Positions 13,435-29,255 of a DNA stretch of 64,000 bases are shown piece after piece. The notes beneath the pieces are model-generated. The model made no database searches. It saw nothing but the letters and a program-made list of their open reading frames with translations, and was not told where the DNA came from. This DNA is from Gemmobacter caeruleus (GTDB lineage: Bacteria > Pseudomonadota > Alphaproteobacteria > Rhodobacterales > Rhodobacteraceae): the NCBI RefSeq assembly GCF_008271655.1, contig NZ_VKKX01000053.1, positions 1 through 64,000 of the forward strand, given 5' to 3'. Positions within the stretch are counted from its first letter, which is position 1, and each line of letters begins with the position of its first letter. The position numbers and the translations under genes are program-made.

Positions 13435-13471
13435 TTGACCTCGCAGCGGCGTGATCCACTACATATGGTGG
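13435..13471 (+). promoter_or_regulatory. Candidate nrdJ promoter overlapped by an NrdR-box-like site
   Basis: TTGACC at 13435-13440 could be a -35, with TACATA at 13460-13465 as a widely spaced (19-base) -10. The imperfect palindrome CCACTACATATGGTGG (13456-13471) covers the -10. NrdR is the ATP/dATP-sensing repressor of ribonucleotide reductase genes and its boxes typically overlap promoters; here only one box is adjacent, whereas NrdR usually binds a closely spaced pair. Confidence 0.5.
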
Positions 13472-13645
13472 CAACGCAGGCGGCAGACCCCAGGTTTCAA
13501 GGCGCCCGCGTGCTTGATGCGGCGCAATCCGTGCGGACCACCGCGCGGAGGCAGTGTCTGCATGCCCGCGCCATCCCGCGGCACGAGAAGGCAAAGGGGG
13601 CAAAGTCCCTCGCAACCGGGACAGGGAAAAGGGACCAAGGGGCAG

Positions 13646-16600
13646 ATGAAGATCGAGCGCAAGTTCACGACCGAAACCACCGGCGCCTATGGCGCGATGG
13701 CCTTCGCCACCACCACCTCGGAAATCCGCAATCCCGATGGCAAGGTGGTGTTCCGCAACGAGGCGGTCGAGATCCCCGAAGGCTGGAGCCAGGTCGCCTC
13801 GGACGTGCTGGCGCAGAAATATTTCCGCAAGGCCGGCGTGCCGGCGGTGCTGAAGCGCGTCAAGGAAAAGGGCGTGCCCGAATTCCTGTGGCGGTCGGTC
13901 CCCGATGACGAGGCGCTGGCGAAACTGCCCGAGGACGCCCGTTTCGGCGGCGAGACCTCGGCCAAGCAGGTCTTTGACCGTCTGGCCGGCGCCTGGGCCT
14001 ATTGGGGCTGGAAGGGCGGCTATTTCACCTCCGAATCCGACGCCCGCGCCTATTACGACGAAATGCGCTTCATGCTGGCCCGCCAGATGGCCGCGCCGAA
14101 TTCGCCCCAATGGTTCAACACCGGCCTGCACTGGGCCTATGGCATCGACGGCCCCGGCCAAGGCCATTTCTATGTCGATTACAAGACCGGCAAGCTGACC
14201 CGTTCCGACAGCGCCTATGAACATCCGCAACCCCATGCCTGCTTCATCCAGTCGGTCAGCGACGATCTGGTGAACGAAGGCGGGATCATGGATCTCTGGG
14301 TCCGCGAGGCGCGGCTGTTCAAATACGGCTCGGGCACCGGGACCAACTTTTCCAGCCTGCGCGGCGAGGGCGAAAAACTCTCGGGCGGCGGCAAGTCGTC
14401 GGGCCTGATGGGCTTTCTCAAGATCGGGGACCGCGCGGCGGGCGCCATCAAGTCGGGCGGCACCACGCGCCGCGCGGCCAAGATGGTGATCTGCGACATG
14501 GATCACCCCGATATCGAACAGTTCATCAACTGGAAGGTCATCGAGGAGCAAAAGGTCGCGAGCCTCGTGGCCGGCTCCAAGATGCACGAACAGCACCTGA
14601 ACGCGATCTTTGCCGCGATCCGGGGCTGGGATGGCAGCGTCGCCGATGCCTGCGACGCGACGAAGAACGATGCGCTGAAAACCGCGATCCGCGCCGCGAA
14701 AAAGGCGATGATCCCGGAAACCTATATCAACCGCGTGCTGCAATATGCGCGGCAGGGTTTCGACAGCATCGAATTCCCGACCTATGACACCGATTGGGAC
14801 AGCGAGGCCTATATCTCGGTCTCGGGCCAGAACTCCAACAACTCGGTCCGTGTCACCGACGCCTTCCTGCGGGCGGTGAAGGAGGATGCCGACTGGGCGC
14901 TGATCCGCCGCACCGATGGCAAGACCGCCAAGACCGTCAAGGCGCGCGAGCTGTGGGATCAGGTCGGCCATGCCGCCTGGGCCTGTGCCGATCCGGGCAT
15001 CCAGTTCCATGACACGGTGAACGCCTGGCATACCTGCCCCGAAGACGGGCCGATCCGCGGGTCGAACCCCTGTTCGGAATACATGTTCCTCGATGATACG
15101 GCCTGCAACCTGGCCTCGATGAACCTGCTGACCTTCTACCGCGACGGCCAGTTCGACGCGCAGGCCTATATCCACGCGACCCGGCTCTGGACCGTGACGC
15201 TGGAAATCAGCGTGATGATGGCGCAATTCCCGTCGAAGGAAATCGCGCAGCTTTCCTATGATTTCCGCACTCTGGGCCTGGGTTACGCCAATATCGGCGG
15301 CCTGCTGATGAATATGGGTCTGGGTTACGACTCGGCCGAGGGCCGCGCGCTTTGCGGGGCGCTGACCGCGCTGATGACCGGCGTGACCTATGCGACCAGC
15401 GCCGAAATGGCGGCAGAGCTGGGGCCCTTCGCGGGCTATGCCCGCAATGCCCAGCACATGCTGCGCGTCATTCGCAACCACCGCCGCGCCGCTTGGGGCC
15501 ATGACGCGGGCTATGAGGCGCTGAACGTGGCGCCGGTCGCCCTCGATGCCGCGAATTGCCCGGATATCGACCTGGTGCGGCTGGCGAAATCGGCCTGGGA
15601 CGAGGCGCTGGCGCTTGGCGAAAAGCATGGCTACCGCAACGCCCAGACCACCGTCATCGCCCCCACCGGCACCATCGGTCTGGTGATGGATTGCGACACG
15701 ACCGGGATCGAGCCGGATTTCGCGCTGGTGAAATTCAAGAAACTGGCCGGCGGCGGCTATTTCAAGATCATCAACCAGTCGGTGCCCGGCGCCCTTGAAA
15801 CGCTGGGCTATTCCTCGGGTCAGGTGGCCGAGATCGTGGCCTATGCCGTGGGCCATGGCAGCCTGGGTAATTGCCCCGGCATCAACCACACCGCGCTGAT
15901 CGGCCATGGCTTCGGCCCGCGCGAGATCGAAAAGATCGAAAGCGCCCTGCCCTCGGCCTTTGACATCCGCTTTGTCTTCAACCAGTGGACGCTGGGCGAG
16001 GAATTCTGCAAGGGCACGCTGGGCATTCCGGCCGATAAACTGGCCGACCCGAGCTTTGACCTGCTGCGCCATCTGGGCTTCAGCAAGGCGCAGATCGACG
16101 CCGCCAACGACCACGTTTGCGGCACGATGACCCTGGAAGGCGCGCCCTTCCTGAAGGCCGATCATCTGTCGGTCTTCGATTGCGCCAATCCCTGCGGCAA
16201 GAAGGGCAAGCGCTTCCTGTCCGTCGAAAGCCACATCACCATGATGGCGGCGGCGCAAAGCTTCATCTCGGGCGCGATTTCCAAGACGATCAACATGCCC
16301 AACTCGGCCTCGATCGAGGAAACGCTGGCGGCGTATGAGTTGTCGCATTCGCTGGGCATCAAGGCCAATGCGCTTTATCGTGACGGCTCGAAACTGTCGC
16401 AGCCGCTGGCCGCGGCCCTGGTCGAGGATGACGAGGAGGCCGAGGAAATCCTCGCCACCGGCACGCCGCAGGAAAAGGCGGTGACGCTGGCCGAAAAGAT
16501 CATCGAAAAGGTGATCGTGAAGGAAATCGTCCGTAGCCACCGCGAAAAGCTGCCGGAACGCCGCAAGGGCTATACCCAGAAGGCGGTCGTGGGTGGGCAC

Positions 16601-17344
16601 AAGGTCTATCTGCGCACCGGCGAATATGGCGACGGCAGCCTGGGCGAGATCTTCATCGACATGCACAAGGAAGGCGCGGGCTTCCGGGCGATGATGAACA
16701 ACTTTGCCATCGCCGTGTCGGTGGGCCTGCAATATGGCGTGCCGCTGGAGGAATTCGTGGACGCCTTCACCTTCACCAAGTTCGAACCGGCGGGCATGGT
16801 GCAGGGCAATGACTCGATCAAGAACGCAACCTCGATCCTCGACTATGTGTTCCGCGAACTGGCGGTCAGCTATCTGGACCGCACCGATCTGGCCCATGTC
16901 GCCCCCAAGGGCGCCAGCTTTGACGAGCTGGGCGGCGGCGTGGCCGAGGGCAAGCGCGAAAGCAATCTGGAGCCGGTAAGCGAAACCGCCGCCTCCAAAT
17001 CGCTGGAGGTGCTGCGCCAGATCTCCTCCACCGGCTATCTGCGCAAGCGACTGCCGAAGGATCTGGTGGTGCTGCAAGGCGGCATGGGCGCGACCGCCCT
17101 GTCGGGCGAACCTTCGGCCCTGTCGATGCTGCTGCCCGAAACCGGCCTTGCCACCGGCACCGGCCCCGTTCTGGGCGGCGCCACCGCCCTGGCCACCGGC
17201 ACCGTCAGCATGGACGCCCGCACCAAGGCCAAGATGCAGGGCTACGAGGGCGAGGCCTGCGGCGAATGCGGCAACTACACGCTGGTCCGCAACGGCACCT
17301 GCATGAAGTGCAACACCTGCGGCGGCACCAGCGGCTGTAGCTGA
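13646..17344 (+). CDS. nrdJ: Adenosylcobalamin-dependent (class II) ribonucleoside-diphosphate reductase
   Basis: 1232 residues; makes deoxynucleotides using a B12-generated thiyl radical, so it works with or without oxygen. Visible: [15 protein letters not shown], the substrate-site region [50 protein letters not shown] (with the NPC...E active-site Cys and Glu), [20 protein letters not shown], and a C-terminal CGECG / CMKCNTCGG zinc-ribbon-like tail that carries the redox Cys. Start at 13646 (MKIERKF) follows AAGGGG; longer frames upstream have no ribosome site. No other ribonucleotide reductase gene occurs in this window. Confidence 0.97.
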
Positions 17345-19719: not shown

Positions 19720-20421
19720 CTAAAGCCGCGTATGCACCCGATGCCCGGGGGCAAAGACCAGCCGCACCGAGGTCAGGCTGCGCCCGGCCTGAAAGGTGCT
19801 GCGCTCGGTCACGAACAGCGCCTCGCCCGGCGCGCAGCGCAGGGCGCGCGCCTCCCCTTCGCTGGCGGCATGGGCCGAAAAGGTCAGGTCGCCCCCCTCG
19901 AACGGCACATTCAGCACCAGCCATTCATTCGGGCTGATCGTCGTGAAATCGGCCTGCGCGGCGGCGGGAATCGCATCGGTCGCGATCCAGCGATCCTCAA
20001 GCGCATGGGGTTGGCCATCGGCGGTGTGCAATCCGGTCAGATGCAGGAGCGGCCGGTCCGGCGCGCTGCCCATCCGGGCGCAAATGCCGGGGGGCGGCAG
20101 TTCGGCGGCTCGGCTGAGCAGGGTAAAGCCATAGGCCTGCCCGCGCCGCTCGATCTCCACCCGCAGGACCGGGATCTCCAGCGTGGCGCGGCGCACGGGG
20201 TGCAGCGCGACACGGGTGCCGGCGCGGCGGCGGCGTTCGATCATGCCGCTATCGGCCACCTCGCGCAGCGCCCGGTTCACCGTGGTGCGGGCGCAGCCGA
20301 ATTCGGTCGCCAGATCGGCCTCATGCGGGATCAGCTGCCCCGGCCGCCATTCGCGGGCGCGGATGCGGCGCAACACCTCGTCACGGATGGATTGCCAGGA
20401 AATCGCGCTGCTTTCCGTCAT
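19720..20421 (-). CDS. hutC: Histidine utilisation repressor HutC (GntR/UTRA family)
   Basis: 233 residues. N-terminal GntR winged helix: IRDEVLRRIRAREWRPGQLI, then HEADLATEFGCARTTVNRAL with the recognition helix. The C-terminal UTRA domain binds the inducer (urocanate in known HutC): RRGQAYGFTLLSRA and ALEDRWIATDAIP are typical. ATG at 20421 overlaps the hutF stop as ATGA, so the two are translationally coupled and HutC controls its own operon. The likely operator is at 21795-21810. Confidence 0.93.
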   Translation of the reverse strand: MTESSAISWQSIRDEVLRRIRAREWRPGQLIPHEADLATEFGCARTTVNRALREVADSGMIERRRRAGTRVALHPVRRATLEIPVLRVEIERRGQAYGFTLLSRAAELPPPGICARMGSAPDRPLLHLTGLHTADGQPHALEDRWIATDAIPAAAQADFTTISPNEWLVLNVPFEGGDLTFSAHAASEGEARALRCAPGEALFVTERSTFQAGRSLTSVRLVFAPGHRVHTRL

Positions 20422-21776
20422 GCCGTCTCCTTCAGCCGGGCCATGGCGGCGCGGTAGCGGGCGGCGATGGCGTCGCGGGCGATGTGACGGCCCTGCCGCA
20501 CCACATGCCGCCCCGCCGCGAAGACATCGCTGACCATCCGGTCGTCGCCCGCGAAAATCCAAGTGTCCAGCGCCATATCGCCCGCCTTGTCGCACAGGTC
20601 AATCTGGCCCATGTCCAGCGCCAGCAGATCGGCCCACAGCCCCGGCGCGATGGCGCCGCAATCGCGCCCCGCCGCCTGGGCGCCGCCCGTGCAGGCCGCC
20701 TCGAACAGCCGCCGCCCGGTGGACTGGCTTTCTGTCGCCAGCGCCGCGCGGGAATGGTCGCGTAGCCGCTGCGAATAATCGAGACTGCGCAGCTCCTCGG
20801 CTAGGGCGATGCGGATATTGCTGTCCGACCCGATGGCGATGCGCCCGCCCGCGCCGAACCAGCGCAGCCCGTCAAAGATGCCGTCGCCCAGGCTCGCCTC
20901 GGTGATCGGACACAGCCCGGCAATGGCGCCCGACCGCGCCAGACCTTCGGTTTCGCGGGGCGTCATCTGCGTGCAATGGATGAAACAGCAATCCGCCCCG
21001 GGCTGCATGTTGTCCAGCACCCAATCGACCGGGCGGGCGCCAAGCGCGGCCTCCACCTCTGACACCTCGGCCAGTTGTTCTGCCAGATGCATGTGAAAGG
21101 GCGCCCCGCCCGCCAGCGCGCGCAGCGCGGGCAGGTCTTCGGGCGCAACCGCGCGCAGCGAATGCGGCGCCACGCCCAGACGGGCATCGGCCAGACCCGC
21201 AAGCGCGCGCCCTGCCCCGGCATGCAGCCGCGCGAAACGGTCGGGATTGTTGCCAAAGCGGATCTGCCCCGGCCCCAGCCCGCGTCGGTCCAGCCCGCCG
21301 AACTGATACTGCACCGGCAGTAGGGTCAGCCCGATCCCGGTTTCGGCCGCCGCCGCCGCGATGCGGGCGCTGGTCTCGGCCAGATCGGCATAGGGCACGC
21401 CACCGGGCGCGTGGTGCAGATAGTGGAATTCCACGTTGCAGGCATAGCCCGCCTCCAGCATTTCCATCTGCACGAAGGCGGCGATGGCCTCGATCTGGTC
21501 GGGGTCGAGCCGGTCGAGAAAGCGGAACATCAACTGCCGCCAGGTCCAGAAACTGTCGGTCGGATTGGGGCCGCGGCTTTCGGTCATGCCGGCCATGGCG
21601 CGCTGAAAGGCGTGGCTATGGGCATTGGCGGGCGCGGGCAGCACAAGGCCCAGCCGCATCCCTTCGGGCGCCGCATCGGGCGTGACGCGCGCAATCCGCC
21701 CCTCCACGATGTCGATCCGCACCCCCTGCGCCCAGCCCGAGGGCAGCAGCGCCGTTTCGGCCCAAAGACTGATCAT
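20418..21776 (-). CDS. hutF: Formimidoylglutamate deiminase HutF
   Basis: 452 residues, amidohydrolase superfamily. It converts N-formimino-L-glutamate to N-formyl-L-glutamate and ammonia, in the variant hut pathway that avoids direct formamide release. Metal motif [13 protein letters not shown] (HxH) near residue 53, plus HMHLAEQ and a C-terminal [10 protein letters not shown] Asp. An AGGAG lies about ten bases before the ATG. First gene of the leftward hut unit, followed by hutC. Confidence 0.93.
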
Positions 21777-21783
21777 TTGCCGG

Positions 21784-21834
21784 TTGACTCCTATTTATGT
21801 ATGCACATAATAGCCAAAACAAGCAATCAATCAA
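21784..21834. promoter_or_regulatory. Divergent hut promoters overlapping one HutC-type operator
   Basis: Rightward (hutI): TTGACT at 21784-21789, 16 bases, CATAAT at 21806-21811. Leftward (hutF): TTGATT (21834-21829), 16 bases, TATTAT (21812-21807). Both -10 elements use the same ATAATA. The palindrome TTATGT-ATGC-ACATAA (21795-21810) lies on both -10 elements and is the natural HutC site: binding there would shut both operons together. Confidence 0.75.
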
Positions 21835-21842
21835 GGGCCGAC

Positions 21843-23027
21843 ATGCTGCTGATCCATGGCACATTGGCGACACAGACCGATCTGGGGCTGATCCGCGACG
21901 GTGCGGTGGCGCTGCGCGCGGGGCGCATCCTCTGGGCCGGGGCGATGGCCGACCTGCCCGACGCCTTGGCGCAGGATGATGTGACCGATCTGCAAGGCCG
22001 CCTCGTCACCCCGGCGCTGATCGACTGCCACACCCATCTGGTGCATGGCGGCAACCGGGCGCGCGAATTCGAGATGCGGCTGAGCGGCGCCAGCTATGAA
22101 GACATCGCCCGCGCCGGCGGCGGCATCGTCTCCACCGTGACCGCGACCCGCGCGGCGTCAGAGGACGACCTGCTGGCGCAGGCCCTGCCCCGGCTGGATG
22201 CGCTGATCGCCGAAGGGATCGCCACGCTGGAGATCAAGTCGGGCTACGGGCTGGATATCGAGACCGAGCTGCGCATGTTGCGCGTGGCGCGGCGGCTGGC
22301 GCAGATGCGGCCCGTGCGCATCCGCACCACCTTTCTGGGCGCCCATGCGGTGCCGGCGGAATACCGGGGCCGCGCCGATGCCTATCTGGAGACGGTCTGC
22401 CTGCCCGCCCTGCGCGCCGCCCATGCCGAGGGGCTGGTCGATGCGGTGGATGGCTTCTGCGAGGGGATCGCCTTTTCCCCCGACCAGATCGCCCGCGTCT
22501 TTGCCGAGGCGCGCGCCCTGCATCTGCCGGTAAAGCTGCATGCCGAACAATTGTCGCATCTGGGCGGCACGCGGCTTGCCGCCGATCATGGCGCGCTGTC
22601 GGCCGATCATGTCGAATACGCGACCGAGACCGATGCGCAGGCCATGGCCCGGGCCGGCACGGTCGCGGTGTTGCTGCCCGGCGCCTTCTACGCGCTGCGC
22701 GAGACCCAGGCGCCCCCCGTCGCTGCCTTCCGCGCCCATGGTGTGCCGATGGCGGTGGCGACCGATCTGAACCCCGGCACCTCGCCGATGAATTCGCTGC
22801 TGCTGGCCATGAACATGGCCTGCACCCTGTTCCGCCTGACCCCGGACGAGGCGCTCAGCGGCGTGACGCTGCACGCCGCCCGCGCCCTGGGCCTTGACGA
22901 TTGCGGCGCCATCGCCCCCGGCCTGCGCGCCGATCTGGCGATCTGGAACGCCGATCACCCGGCCGAACTTTCCTATCGCTTCGGCTTCAACCCGCTTCAC
23001 CGCCGCATCTTCGGACAAGACGCATGA
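21843..23027 (+). CDS. hutI: Imidazolonepropionase
   Basis: 394 residues. Amidohydrolase that opens 4-imidazolone-5-propionate to N-formiminoglutamate, the third step of histidine catabolism. Zinc-site motif [18 protein letters not shown] near residue 61 and the AHAVP, HAEQLSH and [10 protein letters not shown] motifs are present. ATG at 21843 follows AAGGG. Its stop overlaps the hutH start by ATGA. Confidence 0.95.
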
Positions 23028-24556
23028 CCCTGACGCTGACCCCTGGCGCAACGCCGCTTTCGCTTCTGGAAACCCTGTGGCGCGACGCGGTGCCGCTGCG
23101 GCTCGACCCGGCCGCCCGGCCCGGGGTCGAGGCCGCCGCCGCCCTGGTCGCCCGCGCCGCCAATGGCGATCACGCGATCTATGGCGTGAATACGGGCTTT
23201 GGCAAACTGGCCTCGGTGCGCATTCCGGCGGGCGATACGGCGACGCTGCAACGGAACCTGATCCTGTCGCATTGCTGCGGCGTGGGCGAGCCGCTGGACG
23301 CCCCGACCACCCGGCTGATGATGGCGCTGAAGCTCTTGTCGCTGGGCCGCGGCGCCAGCGGCACCGCCTGGGCGACCGTGCAACTGATCGAAGACATGCT
23401 GAACCGCGGCGTGGTGCCGGAAATTCCGGTGCAGGGCTCGGTCGGGGCCTCGGGTGATCTGGCGCCGCTGGCGCATATGGCCGCGGTGATGATCGGCGCG
23501 GGCTTTGCCTATTGGCAGGGCAAGCGGCTGCCCGGGGCCGAGGCGCTGGCCCAAGCCGGGCTTGCCCCCGTGGTGCTGGGCCCGAAAGAGGGGCTGGCCC
23601 TGATCAACGGCACGCAGTTTTCCACCGCCTGCGCATTGGCGGGCCTGTGGGGCGCCTGGGGCAATCTTGGCGCCGCCATCGTGACCGGCGCGCTTTCGAC
23701 CGATGCCATCATGGGATCGACCGCGCCGCTTAATCCGATGATCCACCAACTGCGCGGCCATCCGGGCCAGATCGCCTTTGCCACGGCGCAAAGCGCGCTG
23801 CTGGCCGGATCCGCGATCCGCGAAAGCCACCGCGAGGGCGATACCCGCGTGCAGGATCCCTATTGCATCCGCTGTCAGCCGCAGGTCATGGGCGCCGCGA
23901 TGGATTTGCTGCGCGCCGCGGGCGCCACGCTGGAGACCGAGGCGAATGCCGTGACCGACAACCCGCTGGTGCTGGTCGAAAGCGGCGAGATCGTCTCGGG
24001 CGGCAATTTCCACGCCGAATATGTGGCCTTTGCCGCCGATCAGATCGCGCTGGCGGTGTCTGAAATCGGCGCCATCGCGCAGCGGCGCATCGCGCTGATG
24101 GTGGACCCGACGCTGAGCCACGATCTGCCGCCCTTCCTGACGCCGGCGCCGGGCCTCAATTCCGGGCTGATGATCGCCGAGGTCACCACCGCCGCCCTGA
24201 TGAGCGAGAACAAGCATCTCGCGACGCCCTGTTCCACCGACAGCACGCCGACCTCTGCCAATCAGGAAGATCACGTCAGCATGGCCGCCCATGCGGCGCG
24301 CCGGCTTGTGCGGATGAACGCCAATCTGGGCGTCATTCTGGGGGTGGAGGCGCTGTCGGCCGCGCAGGGCATCGACTGCCGCGCGCCGCTGAAGACCAGC
24401 CCCGCCTTGCAGGCGGTGATGGCGGCGATCCGCGCCGAAATCGCGCCGCTGGGCGAAGACCGCTACATGGCGCCCGATCTGGCCGCCGCGACGCGGCTGG
24501 TCTCCGAAGGCACGCTGGCCCGCGCCGTGGCGCCGCATCTGCCGGTGCTGGCATGA
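23024..24556 (+). CDS. hutH: Histidine ammonia-lyase
   Basis: 510 residues. Converts histidine to urocanate and ammonia. The MIO prosthetic-group tripeptide Ala-Ser-Gly is in [16 protein letters not shown] near residue 145; [10 protein letters not shown] and [18 protein letters not shown] are also typical. Overlaps hutI and the following CoA transferase by four bases on each side, so the three are tightly coupled. Confidence 0.97.
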
Positions 24557-25692
24557 CGCCGCTTGCCGGTCTGCGCGTGCTGGATCTGACCCGGGTGCTG
24601 GCGGGGCCGTTCTGCACCGCGCTCCTGGCCGATCTGGGCGCCGAAGTCATCAAGCTGGAGCCGCCTTCGGGCGACGATTACCGCCATATCGGCCCCTTCC
24701 TGCACGGCGAAAGCGCACTGTTCACGCTGGTCAATCGCGGCAAGCAGTCGATCGTGCTGGATCTGAAAGCGCCGCAGGATCAGGCGCTTGCCCGTGACAT
24801 TGCCCTGCAATGCGATGTGGTGGTGGAGAACTTCCGCCCCGGTGTCGCGGCCCGTCTGGGTCTGGGGGCCGAGACGTTGCGCGCGGCAAAGCCGGGGCTG
24901 ATCTATGCCTCCATCTCGGGCTTTGGCCAATCCGGCCCGGCGGCGCATCTGCCGGCCTATGATCTGGTGGCGCAGGCCATGTCCGGCCTGATGGCCGCGA
25001 CCGGCGACGAAGGCGGCGCGGCCCTGAAGGTGGGCGAAAGCTATGGCGACCTGATGGCCGGGCTTTACGCAAGCTGGGCCATTCTGGCCGCACTTCACCA
25101 GCGCGACCGCAACGGCGAAGGTGCCACCATCGACGTGGCCATGTTCGACGCGCTGTTCTCGCTCTTGCCGACCAGCCACGCCTTGCAATTCTACGCCGGC
25201 CGCGCGCCGGAACGGACGGGCAACCGCCATCCGCTCTCCACCCCGTTTGGCTGTTTCGCCTGCGCCGACGGTCAGGCAGTGATCGCCGTGCTGGGCGATG
25301 GCCAGTGGCAGCGGCTTTGCGCGCTGATTGGCGCCACGCCCGCGCCGCATCTGGCAACGGATGAGGCCCGCACCGCGCATGAGCCCGAGGTTCGCGCGAT
25401 GATCGAGGCCTGGACCGGCCCGCGCCCGACCGCCGAGGTGGTGGCCGCCCTCGCCGCCGCCGGCATCCCCACGGCCGAGGTGCAGACCCTGGCGCAGGCG
25501 GCGGACAGCCCCCATGCGCAGGCGCGCGGGCTGGTGTCCGACCTGCCGCATCCGGTGCTGGGCCATGCCAAGACCATCGGCCAACCCGTTCGTTTCAATA
25601 GTGAAAAGCCGATTGCTGCCAGTTCGGCCCCGCAGCTTGGCGCTGATCGCGCCGCGATCCTGACCCGACTGGGACTTGCCGACCATGACTGA
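24553..25692 (+). CDS. CaiB/BaiF (class III) CoA transferase embedded in the hut operon
   Basis: 379 residues. N-terminal [20 protein letters not shown] and [20 protein letters not shown] are classic for the family; the catalytic Asp is expected at Asp166 in [11 protein letters not shown]. Such enzymes move CoA between carboxylic acids. ATGA overlap with hutH and an eight-base overlap with the following acyl-CoA dehydrogenase show it belongs to the operon. It is not a known step of histidine breakdown. By analogy with CaiB, it could move CoA between urocanoyl-CoA and imidazolepropionate; that is inference. Confidence 0.93.
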
Positions 25693-26824
25693 CCTTTTCC
25701 ATATGCTCAGCGATGAGGAACGCGCCTTCCTCGACATGCTCGCCCGCTTTTGCGCGCAGGAACTGGCGCCGAAAGCCGCCGCCACCGATGAAAGCGGCGC
25801 CTTCGTCCATGACCAGCTTGCCGCCCTTGCCGCGACCGGCATGATGGGCGCCAACCTGCCCGAACCCTGGGGGCCGGGCATCAGCGCGCAGGCGCTGCTC
25901 CGGGCCGTTGAACTGGTGGCGGGCGGCTGCGGGTCCACCGTCTCGGCGCTGACCGCGCATTACCTCGCGACCGATTCCATCCTGATCGGCGGCACCCCGG
26001 CGCAGCGCGACCACTGGCTGCCCATGGCGGCCGAGGGCACCGCGCTTGGCGCCTTTGCCCTGACCGAACGCAATGCCGGGTCCGACCCCGCCGATATGCG
26101 CACCCGCGCCACTCGCACGACGGAGGGCTGGCACCTCAAGGGCGCCAAATGCTTCATCTCCAACGGCGGTGTCGCGGATTTCCTGATCGCCTACGCCGTC
26201 ACCGACCCCTCGAAAGCCCATAAGGGCATCAGCGCCTTCCTCGTGCCCAAGGGCACGCCCGGCCTGACACCCGGCCGCGCCGAGCGCACCATGGGCCTGC
26301 GCGGCGGCCATGTGTGGGAACTGGATCTGGATTGCCACCTGCCGCCCGACGCCTTGCTGGGCGACGAGGGCACCGGCTTTCGCACTGCGATGAAGGTCTT
26401 GGACAATGGCCGGGTCGAGGTCGCCGCCATGTGCATCGGCATCGCGCAAGCCGCCCTTGATGCCGCCGTCGCCTGGACCAAGACCCGCATCATCGGCGGC
26501 GAGGCGCTGGCCAACCGCCAGGGCATCCGCTGGCAACTGGCGGACATGGCGCTCGACCTGCGCGCGGCCCGTCTGCTCGCGCTGGAGGCCGCGCGGCAAC
26601 GCGCCCTCGGCCAGCGCTTCAGCGAGGCCGCCAGCATGGCCAAGCTCGCCGCCTCCGAAATGGCCGGGCGCGTCACCGATGGCGCGCTGCAACTGCATGG
26701 CGGCTATGGCTACACCGCCGACTTCCCGCTTGAACGCCACGCCCGCGATGTCCGCATCATGCGGATTTACGAGGGATCGTCCGAAATCCAGCGCGGCATC
26801 ATCGCCGCCCATCTGCTTGCCTGA
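25685..26824 (+). CDS. Acyl-CoA dehydrogenase embedded in the hut operon
   Basis: 379 residues, FAD-dependent. Visible are [20 protein letters not shown], the FAD/substrate core [15 protein letters not shown], the [16 protein letters not shown] motif and the catalytic Glu in [13 protein letters not shown], so it should be a true alpha,beta-dehydrogenase. The ATG at 25685 lies inside the end of the CoA transferase gene and hutU follows after 11 bases. In this position it may oxidise imidazolepropionyl-CoA to urocanoyl-CoA; a generic side-chain role is the alternative. Confidence 0.93.
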
Positions 26825-26835
26825 GGATCGCCGCC

Positions 26836-28518
26836 ATGAACAGCCGTCACAACACCCGCGACATCTTTCCACCCACCGGCCCCACGCTGAACGCAAAGAA
26901 CTGGCAGGCCGAGGCCGCGCTGCGCATGCTGATGAACAACCTCCACCCCGATGTGGCGGAAAACCCGCATGAGCTGGTGGTCTATGGCGGCATCGGCCGC
27001 GCCGCCCGCACGTGGGAGGATTTCGACCGCATCTGCGCCGCGCTGAAGGATCTGGAGGCGGACGAGACCCTGCTCGTGCAATCCGGCAAACCCGTCGCCA
27101 TCGTGCGCACCCATGCCGACGCCCCGCGCGTGCTGATCGCCAATTCGAACCTCGTGCCGCATTGGGCCACCTGGGAACATTTCAATGAATTGGATCGCAA
27201 GGGCCTGATGATGTATGGCCAGATGACCGCCGGGTCATGGATCTATATCGGCACCCAAGGCATCGTGCAGGGCACCTATGAGACCTTCGCCGAGGCCGGG
27301 CGCCAGCATTATGCGGGCGATTTGACCGGCAAATGGGTGCTGACCGGCGGCCTTGGCGGCATGGGCGGCGCGCAGCCGCTGGCCGCGGTGATGGCCGGGG
27401 CCTGCTGCCTCGCGGTCGAGGTGGACGAGACCCGCATCGACTTCCGCCTGCGCACCCGCTACGTCGATGCCAAGGCGAAAACACTGGACGAGGCGCTGGC
27501 GCTGATCGACGACTGGACCGCGAAGGGCGAGGCGAAATCGGTGGGCCTTCTGGGCAACGCGGCCGAGGTCTTTCCCGAACTGCTGCGCCGCATGCAATCG
27601 GGCGGCCCCCGCCCGGATATCGTGACCGACCAGACCTCCGCCCATGATCCGCTGCACGGCTATTGCCCGGCAGGCTGGAGCGTCGGCGACTGGCGCGCCA
27701 GGCAGGAAACCGCGCCCGCCGAGGTCGAACGCGCCGCCCGCGCCTCGATGAAACAGCATGTCGCGGCCATGGTCGGCTTCCATGAGGCCGGCGTGCCCAC
27801 CCTCGATTATGGCAACAACATCCGTCAGGTGGCCAAGGACGAGGGGCTGGACAACGCCTTCGCCTTCCCCGGCTTCGTGCCGGCCTATATCCGCCCGCTG
27901 TTCTGCAAGGGCATCGGCCCCTTCCGCTGGGCCGCGCTGTCGGGCGACCCCGAGGACATCGCGAAAACCGATGCCGCGATGAAGAAACTCTTCCCGGAAA
28001 ACAAGCACCTGCACCGCTGGCTGGACATGGCCGCCGAACGCATCGCCTTTCAGGGCCTGCCCGCGCGCATCTGCTGGATCGGCCTTGGCGACCGCCACCG
28101 CGCCGGGTTGATGTTCAACGAGATGGTTGCCAGCGGCGAACTCAAGGCGCCCGTGGTCATCGGCCGCGACCACCTCGATTCAGGCTCCGTCGCCTCGCCC
28201 AACCGCGAGACCGAGGCGATGCGCGACGGCTCGGATGCCGTGTCGGACTGGCCGCTTCTGAACGCGCTGACCAATACCGCCTCGGGCGCGACCTGGGTCA
28301 GCCTGCATCACGGCGGCGGCGTCGGCATGGGCTTTTCGCAGCATTCGGGCGTGGTGATCGTGGCCGACGGCACGCCCGAGGCCGCGAAACGCCTCGAACG
28401 CGTGCTGTGGAACGATCCGGCCTCCGGCGTCATGCGCCATGCCGATGCGGGCTATGACATCGCGCTGGATTGCGCCCGCGACCACGGCCTGCGCCTGCCC
28501 GGCATCCTCGGCAACTGA
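26836..28518 (+). CDS. hutU: Urocanate hydratase
   Basis: 560 residues. NAD-dependent hydration of urocanate to imidazolonepropionate. Conserved [36 protein letters not shown] for NAD binding, and the C-terminal [22 protein letters not shown] lies before the ATG. Last hut gene of the rightward unit; it completes histidine to formiminoglutamate together with hutH and hutI. Confidence 0.97.
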
Positions 28519-28520
28519 GG

Positions 28521-28577
28521 CTCTTGCTTCTTGCCTAAATACTCCACAGGGGTCCGGGGGTGTGACCCCCCCGGTTC
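28521..28577. repeat. Rhodobacterales-type intergenic repeat, copy A
   Basis: TTGCCTAAATACTCC, then a GGGGTCC block and a hairpin CCGGGGG-TGTGA-CCCCCCCGG at 28554-28574. It matches copies B (33409-33470) and C (60611-60647) in layout: a TTTG/TTGnnnAAATAnnnCC head and a GC-rich CCGG tail. It may also end the hut transcript, though it has no T-run. Confidence 0.6.
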
Positions 28578-28601
28578 CACAGCAAACGGAAGGAACAGCA
28601 T

Positions 28602-29255
28602 ATGCATTACGCGCCGGGGTCCGAACCCTGCCCTCTGCCCTATTCGCCCTTCAAGGCCTGCACCGTGCCGCGCCCGATCGGCTGGCTGTCCACCATCTCG
28701 AAAGCCGGGATCCCCAATCTCGCGCCCTACAGCCAGTGGCAGAACCTGACCTTCGATCCGCCGATGGTGATGTTCGCGGCCAATCAATATGCCGACGGTC
28801 GCCGCAAACATACCGTCATCAACGCCGAGGAAACCGGCTGGTTCGTTTGGAACATGTGCACCTATGACCTGCGCGAGGCGATGAACCAGAGCGCGGTGGA
28901 ATGGCCCGAGGGCGATGACGAATTCCTGCGCGCGGGCGTCACCGCCGCCCCCTGCATCGACGCGCCGGGGCCGCGCGTGGCCGAAAGCCCGGCGCATTTC
29001 GAATGCCGTTACCTCTCCACCCACCGGCTGCGCGGCAATTCGGGGCACGGCTGGGTCGATGTGGTATTTGGCGAGGTCATGCGCATCCATGTTGCCGATC
29101 ATGTGCTGACCGCCGATGGCAAGCTCGATTACGCGAGGATCCGCCCGCTGGCCCGTGTGGGCTATCACGATTACACCAGCTTTTCCGAGACCTTCACCAT
29201 GCCCATTCCCGGCGCCACCGGCGCGGCGGCGGCGGGGTTGGAGGGCAAGGCTTGA
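28602..29255 (+). CDS. Flavin reductase-like (FMN-binding split barrel) protein
   Basis: 217 residues. PFKACTVPRPIGWLSTISKA, then NLAPYSQWQNLTFDPPMVMF is the characteristic FMN-binding start of the DIM6/NTAB flavin-reductase-like family, which reduce FMN or serve as oxidoreductases of unknown substrate. Good ribosome site GGAAGGA. It follows hutU after a repeat of about 60 bases, so its membership in the hut operon is possible but not shown. Confidence 0.85.
   Translation: MHYAPGSEPCPLPYSPFKACTVPRPIGWLSTISKAGIPNLAPYSQWQNLTFDPPMVMFAANQYADGRRKHTVINAEETGWFVWNMCTYDLREAMNQSAVEWPEGDDEFLRAGVTAAPCIDAPGPRVAESPAHFECRYLSTHRLRGNSGHGWVDVVFGEVMRIHVADHVLTADGKLDYARIRPLARVGYHDYTSFSETFTMPIPGATGAAAAGLEGKA

Follow-up and report, generated by a model that had tools for sequence, protein, structure and literature searches.

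Enzyme pairs that keep coenzyme A (CoA) in a loop, with an acyl-CoA dehydrogenase (ACAD) as one partner, are known from carnitine and caffeate metabolism. In the carnitine system, the family III CoA-transferase CaiB recycles CoA between product and substrate, and CaiA, an ACAD, acts on the alpha,beta bond. In caffeate respiration, CarA and the ACAD-type CarC of Acetobacterium woodii recycle CoA between an arylpropionate and an arylacrylate, working reductively with a bifurcating electron-transfer flavoprotein (ETF). FldA-type systems, which serve the reductive, anaerobic fermentation of aromatic amino acids, combine a family III CoA-transferase for arylacrylate and aryl-lactate with an ACAD to yield the arylpropionate. 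Here we describe a pair of the same two families, one CoA-transferase and one ACAD, lying between hutH and hutU in the histidine utilization (hut) operon of Gemmobacter caeruleus, on a 64,000-nucleotide stretch of contig NZ_VKKX01000053.1 that was analysed as a whole (the window). The two enzymes probably run a CoA loop in the oxidative direction, through which imidazolepropionate (ImP) would enter the hut pathway, a reading of substrate, direction and loop that we draw from sequence and gene neighbourhood.

In the cycle we propose, the CoA-transferase would use its aspartate to move CoA from urocanoyl-CoA to ImP, giving urocanate and ImP-CoA; the ACAD, with FAD and with Glu363 as base, would oxidise ImP-CoA to urocanoyl-CoA, and the electrons would pass through ETF and ETF:quinone oxidoreductase (ETF:QO) to quinone. 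Since the urocanoyl-CoA would serve the next round, only a priming CoA ester, for example from succinyl-CoA, would be required, and neither ATP nor a thioesterase would be needed after it. The genes identified around the pair include neither a CoA ligase nor a thioesterase. The released urocanate would be carried onward by HutU, HutI and HutF along the established pathway.

The pair shares with CaiB/CaiA the combination of a family III CoA-transferase and an ACAD, but its substrate class is a different one, it occurs in hut clusters and probably works oxidatively, and its scores lie far below both models: the first protein was rejected as a carnitine-type CoA-transferase (CaiB, NF002914) at 125 against a cut-off of 413 bits, and the second as a crotonobetainyl-CoA dehydrogenase (CaiA, NF002885) at 144.5 against 540 bits. 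CarA/CarC has in common with it a CoA loop with an ACAD-type partner, and by analogy caffeyl-CoA reductase would be the functional mirror image of the proposed ACAD. The ring would here be imidazole, and an ETF:QO gene neighbouring the pair in Providencia suggests oxidation. FldA-type systems run opposite to the direction proposed here, and no dehydratase occurs among the genes identified at the locus of the pair. Urocanate reductase, UrdA, is a flavoprotein that works reductively on free acids. The pair differs from it in being, as we propose, CoA-dependent and probably oxidative; the accessible part of a review describes UrdA as interconverting urocanate and ImP (PMC11872695).

A CoA-transferase and an ACAD within the hut operon

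The gene order was read directly from the DNA, and it bears out an earlier note on this stretch, which had given the order hutH, CoA-transferase, ACAD, hutU with overlaps of 4 and 8 bases and an 11-base gap. The histidine ammonia-lyase gene hutH (23024..24556, forward strand; TIGR01225, 655.6 bits, cut-off 539.15), whose product makes urocanate from histidine, ends at 24556 and shares the 4 bases ATGA with the CoA-transferase gene, which has its ATG at 24553. The latter (24553..25692, forward, 379 amino acids; proposed imidazolepropionate:urocanoyl-CoA CoA-transferase) ends at 25692 and overlaps by 8 bases with the ACAD gene (25685..26824, forward, 379 amino acids from the ATG at 25685; proposed imidazolepropionyl-CoA dehydrogenase). 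The ACAD gene ends at 26824 and is followed, after 11 bases, by the ATG of hutU at 26836. Urocanate hydratase, encoded by hutU (26836..28518, forward; TIGR01228, 939.4 bits, cut-off 375), would be the consumer of the proposed product.

The first protein of the pair matches the family III (CaiB/BaiF) profile over its full length (CoA_transf_3, PF02515; 422.6 bits; residues 4-365, profile positions 1-365 of 366). Asp166 is found in 62/62 aligned rows of the CoA-transferase clade described below and in 42/42 rows outside it, and aligns with an aspartate in 10uh, 4hl6, 4ed9, 9br7 and 9br6; we take this position to be the catalytic aspartate of family III. Foldseek matches were 9zav, 9br6, 4ed9, 4hl6 and 9fn0, with SUGCT (9br6) and the benzylsuccinate enzyme BbsEF (9fn0) among the closest solved folds; unlike the protein of the window, the benzylsuccinate CoA-transferase has two subunits. 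The structure model is mediocre (mean pLDDT 78.3), and model and fold search only confirm the family. Succinyl-CoA:glutarate and mesaconate CoA-transferases are among the best-scoring curated models, and both identities were rejected because the cut-offs were not reached (glutarate type, NF052585, 288.7 against 750 bits; mesaconate type, NF041294, 304.1 against 700 bits). Clade-conserved positions are Ala23, Ser229, Trp287 and Gln344, in a residue comparison from which L128, L105 and L125 were excluded.

In the ACAD, the N-terminal, middle and C-terminal domains are all present over cut-off (PF02771, PF02770 and PF00441). Its catalytic glutamate is kept, as the earlier note had stated: it is Glu363, counted from the ATG at 25685, in a column that is Glu in 46/47 rows of the ACAD clade, the remaining row (L030) ending at a contig edge. 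The structure model is good (mean pLDDT 91.6) and has the short-chain ACAD fold, with a TM of 0.95 to 5ol2 and 2vig; here too, it does no more than confirm the family. Positions conserved in the clade include Asn57, Thr96, Asp97, Pro135, Thr234 and Arg306; this comparison used nine outgroup rows, six of them long-branch paralogues from the window's genome, and excluded the ACAD of L128.

The remaining genes identified at the locus (19720-29255) include three further hut genes. Upstream of hutH and overlapping it by 4 bases lies hutI (21843..23027, forward; imidazolonepropionase; TIGR01224, 459 bits, cut-off 298.15), and divergent from the row hutI-hutH-CoA transferase-ACAD-hutU are hutF (20418..21776, reverse; formimidoylglutamate deiminase; TIGR02022, 519.3 bits, cut-off 413.05) and hutC (19720..20421, reverse, start codon picked by eye; GntR-type histidine utilization repressor; TIGR02018, 260.1 bits, cut-off 220); like hutH and hutU, all three pass their curated cut-offs. 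hutG is not in the cluster, and the best score in the whole genome is 103.1 bits against a cut-off of 278.75; a sub-threshold hutG-like match lies at G000:C54:78977-79684, and a divergent hutG paralogue could stand in for hutG in this genome. Directly 3' of hutU, a flavin-reductase-domain protein (28602..29255, forward; PF01613, 58.2 bits) is 82-83% identical to proteins at the same site behind hutU in L026 and L027. The GC content is 0.68-0.70 at the locus against 0.63-0.70 across the window, so composition does not mark the locus as foreign. A class II (B12-dependent) ribonucleotide reductase at 13451-17341 is an ordinary neighbour.

Recurrence and linkage across genomes

At E<=1e-100, the CoA-transferase was found in 20/394 genomes of a sample of the window's own family. 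Wider samples yielded 6/385 (class) and 9/398 (phylum), the window's genome being counted in each; the gene is therefore sparse but scattered. Among plasmid records it occurs, at E<=1e-100, in 14/72,556. For the 20 family places outside the window, 4.4 to 20 kb were taken and hut genes were mapped by tblastn: in 14/20 family genomes a hutH or hutU lies within ~10 kb of the CoA-transferase, although in G031, which is among the 14, no ACAD adjoins it. Four loci, those of the window, L026, L028 and L033, show the exact order hutH-CoA transferase-ACAD-hutU, and L030 shows it as far as its contig extends. Where relatives have hutG in the operon, it lies between hutH and the CoA-transferase, and hutH-hutG-CoA transferase-ACAD-hutU is found in L029, L031, L032, Pseudodonghicola (L071), Roseovarius (L073), Paracoccus (L074), Paracoccus alcaliphilus (L159) and Thioclava (L162). 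On the Thioclava nitratireducens plasmid, hutU (L162:9358-11039) matches as two overlapping pieces, is absent from the gene table and may be interrupted.

Related pairs in or beside hut clusters occur in Rhodobacterales, Acetobacter, Comamonadaceae, Pseudomonas, Providencia, Brevibacterium and, distantly, Virgibacillus. In Virgibacillus chiguensis (Bacillota), the row CoA transferase-ACAD-hutU is followed by hutI and hutH, at only 39% and 42% identity for the pair, and this appears to be an independent or very ancient case. The earlier note had proposed a search for the order elsewhere, with and without hutG, and had reckoned with an insertion confined to a single strain. Both forms were found in several genera and the pair lies in or beside hut clusters in three phyla, which disposes of a single-strain oddity; because it recurs in many genera, the operon arrangement is not due to chance.

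Linkage was quantified on a locus set that includes the best 80 loci with named records from a scan of genome contigs with an alignment of 17 CoA-transferases. The table comprises L026-L045, L058-L065 and L070-L149, the window not being a row; three rows were removed ahead of the statistics, L070 and L072 as duplicates of the records of L027 and L030, and L030 itself for its short contig, leaving 105 loci. A hutH, hutU or thiourocanate gene lies within 10 kb of 29/50 homologues with an adjacent ACAD as compared with 5/55 without one (Fisher p=7e-8). By identity, the same linkage holds for 32/63 homologues at >=45% and for 2/42 below 45%. The linkage of the pair to hut genes is specific and not due to chance. 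L087, which has only hutF and hutI nearby, was not counted as linked and is labelled hut in the CoA-transferase tree. A divergent LysR-type regulator adjoins the CoA-transferase in 25/105 loci.

A CoA-transferase tree of 109 rows contains a clade of 62 (SH-aLRT 100) that holds 36/37 rows labelled hut or thio, the window included, and the sole labelled row outside it is Virgibacillus (L128). In a tree of 63 ACADs, those of the single-gene type group together as 47 rows (100/100), with sub-branches (Rhodobacterales, Burkholderiales, Pseudomonas/Providencia and Brevibacterium) that broadly match the CoA-transferase tree. The two trees disagree on the position of Acetobacter lovaniensis (L097), and in L089 and L096 the clade ACAD lies 4 to 7 kb from the CoA-transferase and does not adjoin it.

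Gene neighbourhoods bearing on direction and substrate

Providencia heimbachae (L095) bears on the direction of the reaction. In it hutU, CoA transferase and ACAD are followed on the same strand by genes for an NCS1-type permease, ETF beta, ETF alpha and ETF:QO, and no hutH or other hut gene besides hutU was detected within 21 kb. A hutU with the pair, no hutH detected nearby and an ETF:QO argues for HutU as the consumer and for quinone as the destination of the electrons. A similar row in L065 consists of a GntR/UTRA regulator, hutU, CoA transferase, ACAD and the same permease type, in a genome (grouping with Pseudomonas) that has two urocanate hydratases, at L065:10634-12289 and G825:C1:5431839-5433470. 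The permease stands behind the pair in L065, L082, L093, L095, L100, L109 and L115, and ETF genes do so in L082, L093 (where the contig end cuts the row) and L095; the window's genome has an ETF:QO, located elsewhere than the pair. A urocanate hydratase of its own, a permease and an electron route to quinone would fit a pair that produces urocanate oxidatively. TRAP transporters adjoin the pair in L039-L041 and follow hutU in L037 and L073; for the TRAP binding protein of Roseovarius L073, the window's genome offers no close relative (at most 33%).

The same rows bear on the reverse direction, in which the pair would reduce urocanate to ImP as an electron sink and would be a CoA-dependent counterpart of UrdA. 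Related ACAD-type enzymes do work reductively: caffeyl-CoA reductase CarC (6fah) is among the sequence relatives of the ACAD, at E 3.9e-61, and its best-scoring curated model is acryloyl-CoA reductase, at 348.5 bits below a cut-off of 640. However, reduction fits poorly with an ETF:QO in the Providencia row and in the window's genome, as well as with a hutU-CoA transferase-ACAD unit that has a permease and no hutH detected nearby, and it would waste a hut substrate within the same operon. We therefore hold reduction to be very unlikely and retain oxidation of ImP as the preferred direction.

A parallel that bears on the substrate comes from thiourocanate/hydantoin clusters, where the same CoA-transferase clade occurs in three genomes: G114 (L045), Stappia indica (L085) and Afipia (L090). 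Its partners there are hydantoin-5-propionate amidohydrolase, N-carbamyl-glutamate hydrolase, thiohydantoin desulfurase and thiourocanate hydratase. The last scores 976.7 bits in L045, 1019.2 in L085 and 969.2 in L090 (cut-off 930); for the other genes, curated models were used in L045 and tblastn in the remaining two clusters. The ACAD of these clusters is of a different, two-gene type, with Gly and not Glu at the aligned column of the first subunit in 6/6 rows. With the same CoA-transferase clade and a changed ACAD, the attachment to (thio)urocanate hydratases was thus kept and the dehydrogenase partner switched. Because the clade also stands beside thiourocanate hydratase, a shared propionate-to-acrylate oxidation on an imidazole ring appears plausible, and the simplest common chemistry would be oxidation of an imidazolyl-propionate to an imidazolyl-acrylate. 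On the same grounds, glutaryl-CoA or N-formylglutamate chemistry was rejected as the principal explanation. The thio clusters (L045:1030-12632, L085:1637-13225 and L090:1025-13435) are of ergothioneine type, with TRAP genes in L045 and L085, and represent a candidate route for 2-thio-imidazolepropionate. Three members of the thio branch, L042, L043 and L091, have no thio genes nearby; the L091 genome contains another HutU-family match, whose 690 bits are a thio-type score.

Plasmids provide a further setting. On plasmid p2 of Gemmobacter fulvus (G361; L160:1461-11344), the pair lies behind a VanA-like Rieske oxygenase with its reductase, a HisC-type aminotransferase (283.4 bits, cut-off 276.55) and a GlcD-like flavoenzyme (242.6 bits, under cut-off). 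A Mesorhizobium plasmid (L163:2683-15125) has the same six gene types in another order, to which it adds a repressor annotated as hutC and an ABC transporter for amino acids. Both clusters join Rieske oxygenase, ferredoxin reductase, HisC-like aminotransferase and GlcD-like FAD oxidase to the CoA-transferase/ACAD pair. Judging from these gene families, it is possible that the plasmid sets return imidazole lactate (imidazolelactate), N-methylated (methylhistidine) and propionate derivatives to histidine or urocanate.

Thio clusters and plasmid sets together raise the question of whether the pair acts mainly on a modified imidazolepropionate, bearing an N-methyl or other substituent, whose product would need a further step before or after HutU. 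The tie of the clade to thiourocanate genes in L045, L085 and L090 is in keeping with this, and the Rieske oxygenase, HisC-like aminotransferase and FAD oxidase of L160 and L163 suggest substituted histidine derivatives in some hosts. At the window, however, the neighbour is an ordinary HutU, which scores 939 bits as urocanate hydratase and lies below the cut-offs of both thiourocanate models (676 against 880 and 671 against 930 bits), and no demethylase or desulfurase is among the genes identified at 19.7-29.9 kb. A modified main substrate thus seems unlikely, and we continue to favour ImP itself.

A different fate for the CoA ester is suggested by Acetobacter okinawensis, where a HutH-like lyase, a clade CoA-transferase and a 3-hydroxyacyl-CoA dehydrogenase lie in a row (L101:8397-12112), an arrangement that suggests side-chain beta-oxidation of an arylacrylate. 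If the pair of the window worked in this way, its CoA ester would be converted to imidazole acetate or imidazole carboxylate with no free urocanate. Yet no hydratase, 3-hydroxyacyl-CoA dehydrogenase or thiolase is among the window genes identified at 19.7-29.9 kb, and the recurrent partner of the pair is HutU, which acts on free urocanate. We regard this route as quite improbable for the window, compared with the release of urocanate from an ImP-derived loop.

Several observations weigh against the oxidation of ImP as the function of the pair. For 21 of the 50 pairs in the table, hutH, hutU and thio genes are all absent within 10 kb (in one of these, L093, a short piece of hutU adjoins the pair where the contig ends), and the near-identical loci L039-L041 inflate the linkage counts. 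In G. fulvus (G361), of the window's own genus, the pair and the hut cluster are ~30 kb apart. A sister branch (L044, L087 and L094) combines the CoA-transferase with a zinc-type (quinone-oxidoreductase-like) dehydrogenase and no adjacent ACAD, and the clade may therefore not share one single reaction. These sites are L044:8261-13072, L094:8141-15770 and L087:8937-11119, with an IclR regulator and hutU in L044 and L094. No substrate-specific residue proving imidazole binding was found among the clade-conserved positions of the CoA-transferase or the ACAD, and for the window neither a first CoA donor nor an ImP transporter was identified.

The unlinked pairs, together with the size and promiscuity of both families, would also suit a passenger pair that acts on unrelated acyl-CoAs and is co-transcribed with hut genes by chance. 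Against this, the linkage recurs in three phyla and in more than one gene order, and it greatly exceeds the linkage seen for more distant homologues. Of 23 genomes whose pair is unlinked within 10 kb or thio-linked, 22 have a HutU-family match above the cut-off, compared with a base rate of 154/398 in the phylum sample. The exception among the 23 is Pseudomonas lundensis, which has hutU fragments at contig ends only. The Afipia genome has HutU-family matches of 672 bits, which is its thiourocanate hydratase, and of 437 bits over 253 positions, which looks like a HutU fragment. Within the phylum sample, HutU occurs in 9/9 CoA-transferase-positive genomes and in 145/389 others (p=1.7e-4), with the CoA-transferase and HutU counts (398 genomes each) taken as one draw. 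A chance passenger is accordingly the explanation to which we give the least credence. The Providencia row, the thio parallel and the HutU counts support the conversion of ImP to urocanate, as the earlier note had read the pair, as the best hypothesis, with the substrate assigned by inference.

Imidazolepropionate and a possible salvage of histidine waste

ImP impairs insulin signalling, and the accessible part of a review calls it a non-metabolizable product of urocanate reductase (PMC11872695); a second article, in its accessible part, describes reductive ImP formation in gut bacteria and mentions no ImP oxidation (PMC13320830). In the open-access literature we found no gene set for ImP catabolism and no paper on urocanoyl-CoA, imidazolepropionyl-CoA or thiourocanoyl-CoA, and phrases for the breakdown or oxidation of ImP likewise brought up none; subscription papers are mostly outside this coverage. 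Bacteria were reportedly grown on imidazolepropionate in the mid-20th century. As far as we could find, the new elements are the imidazole substrate class, the hut setting and the oxidative use of the CoA loop.

We lean, with somewhat less assurance than for the loop itself, towards a wider picture: a widespread and sometimes plasmid-borne CoA-recycling pathway by which environmental and host-associated bacteria would oxidise ImP and, via a sister module, its ergothioneine-derived thio-analogue, to (thio)urocanate. It would be the first gene set for ImP catabolism as judged from the open-access literature, and a branch of a larger set for the salvage of histidine waste in its N-methyl, lactate, propionate and thio forms. 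If the pair does oxidise ImP, a recurrent and unexplained insertion in hut operons would be accounted for, and the CoA-loop principle would extend to imidazole acids. The pair would also provide a genetic marker for ImP-consuming bacteria and an enzyme for measuring or removing ImP, and the bacteria that carry it would use ImP, a diabetes-linked microbial by-product of histidine, as food.

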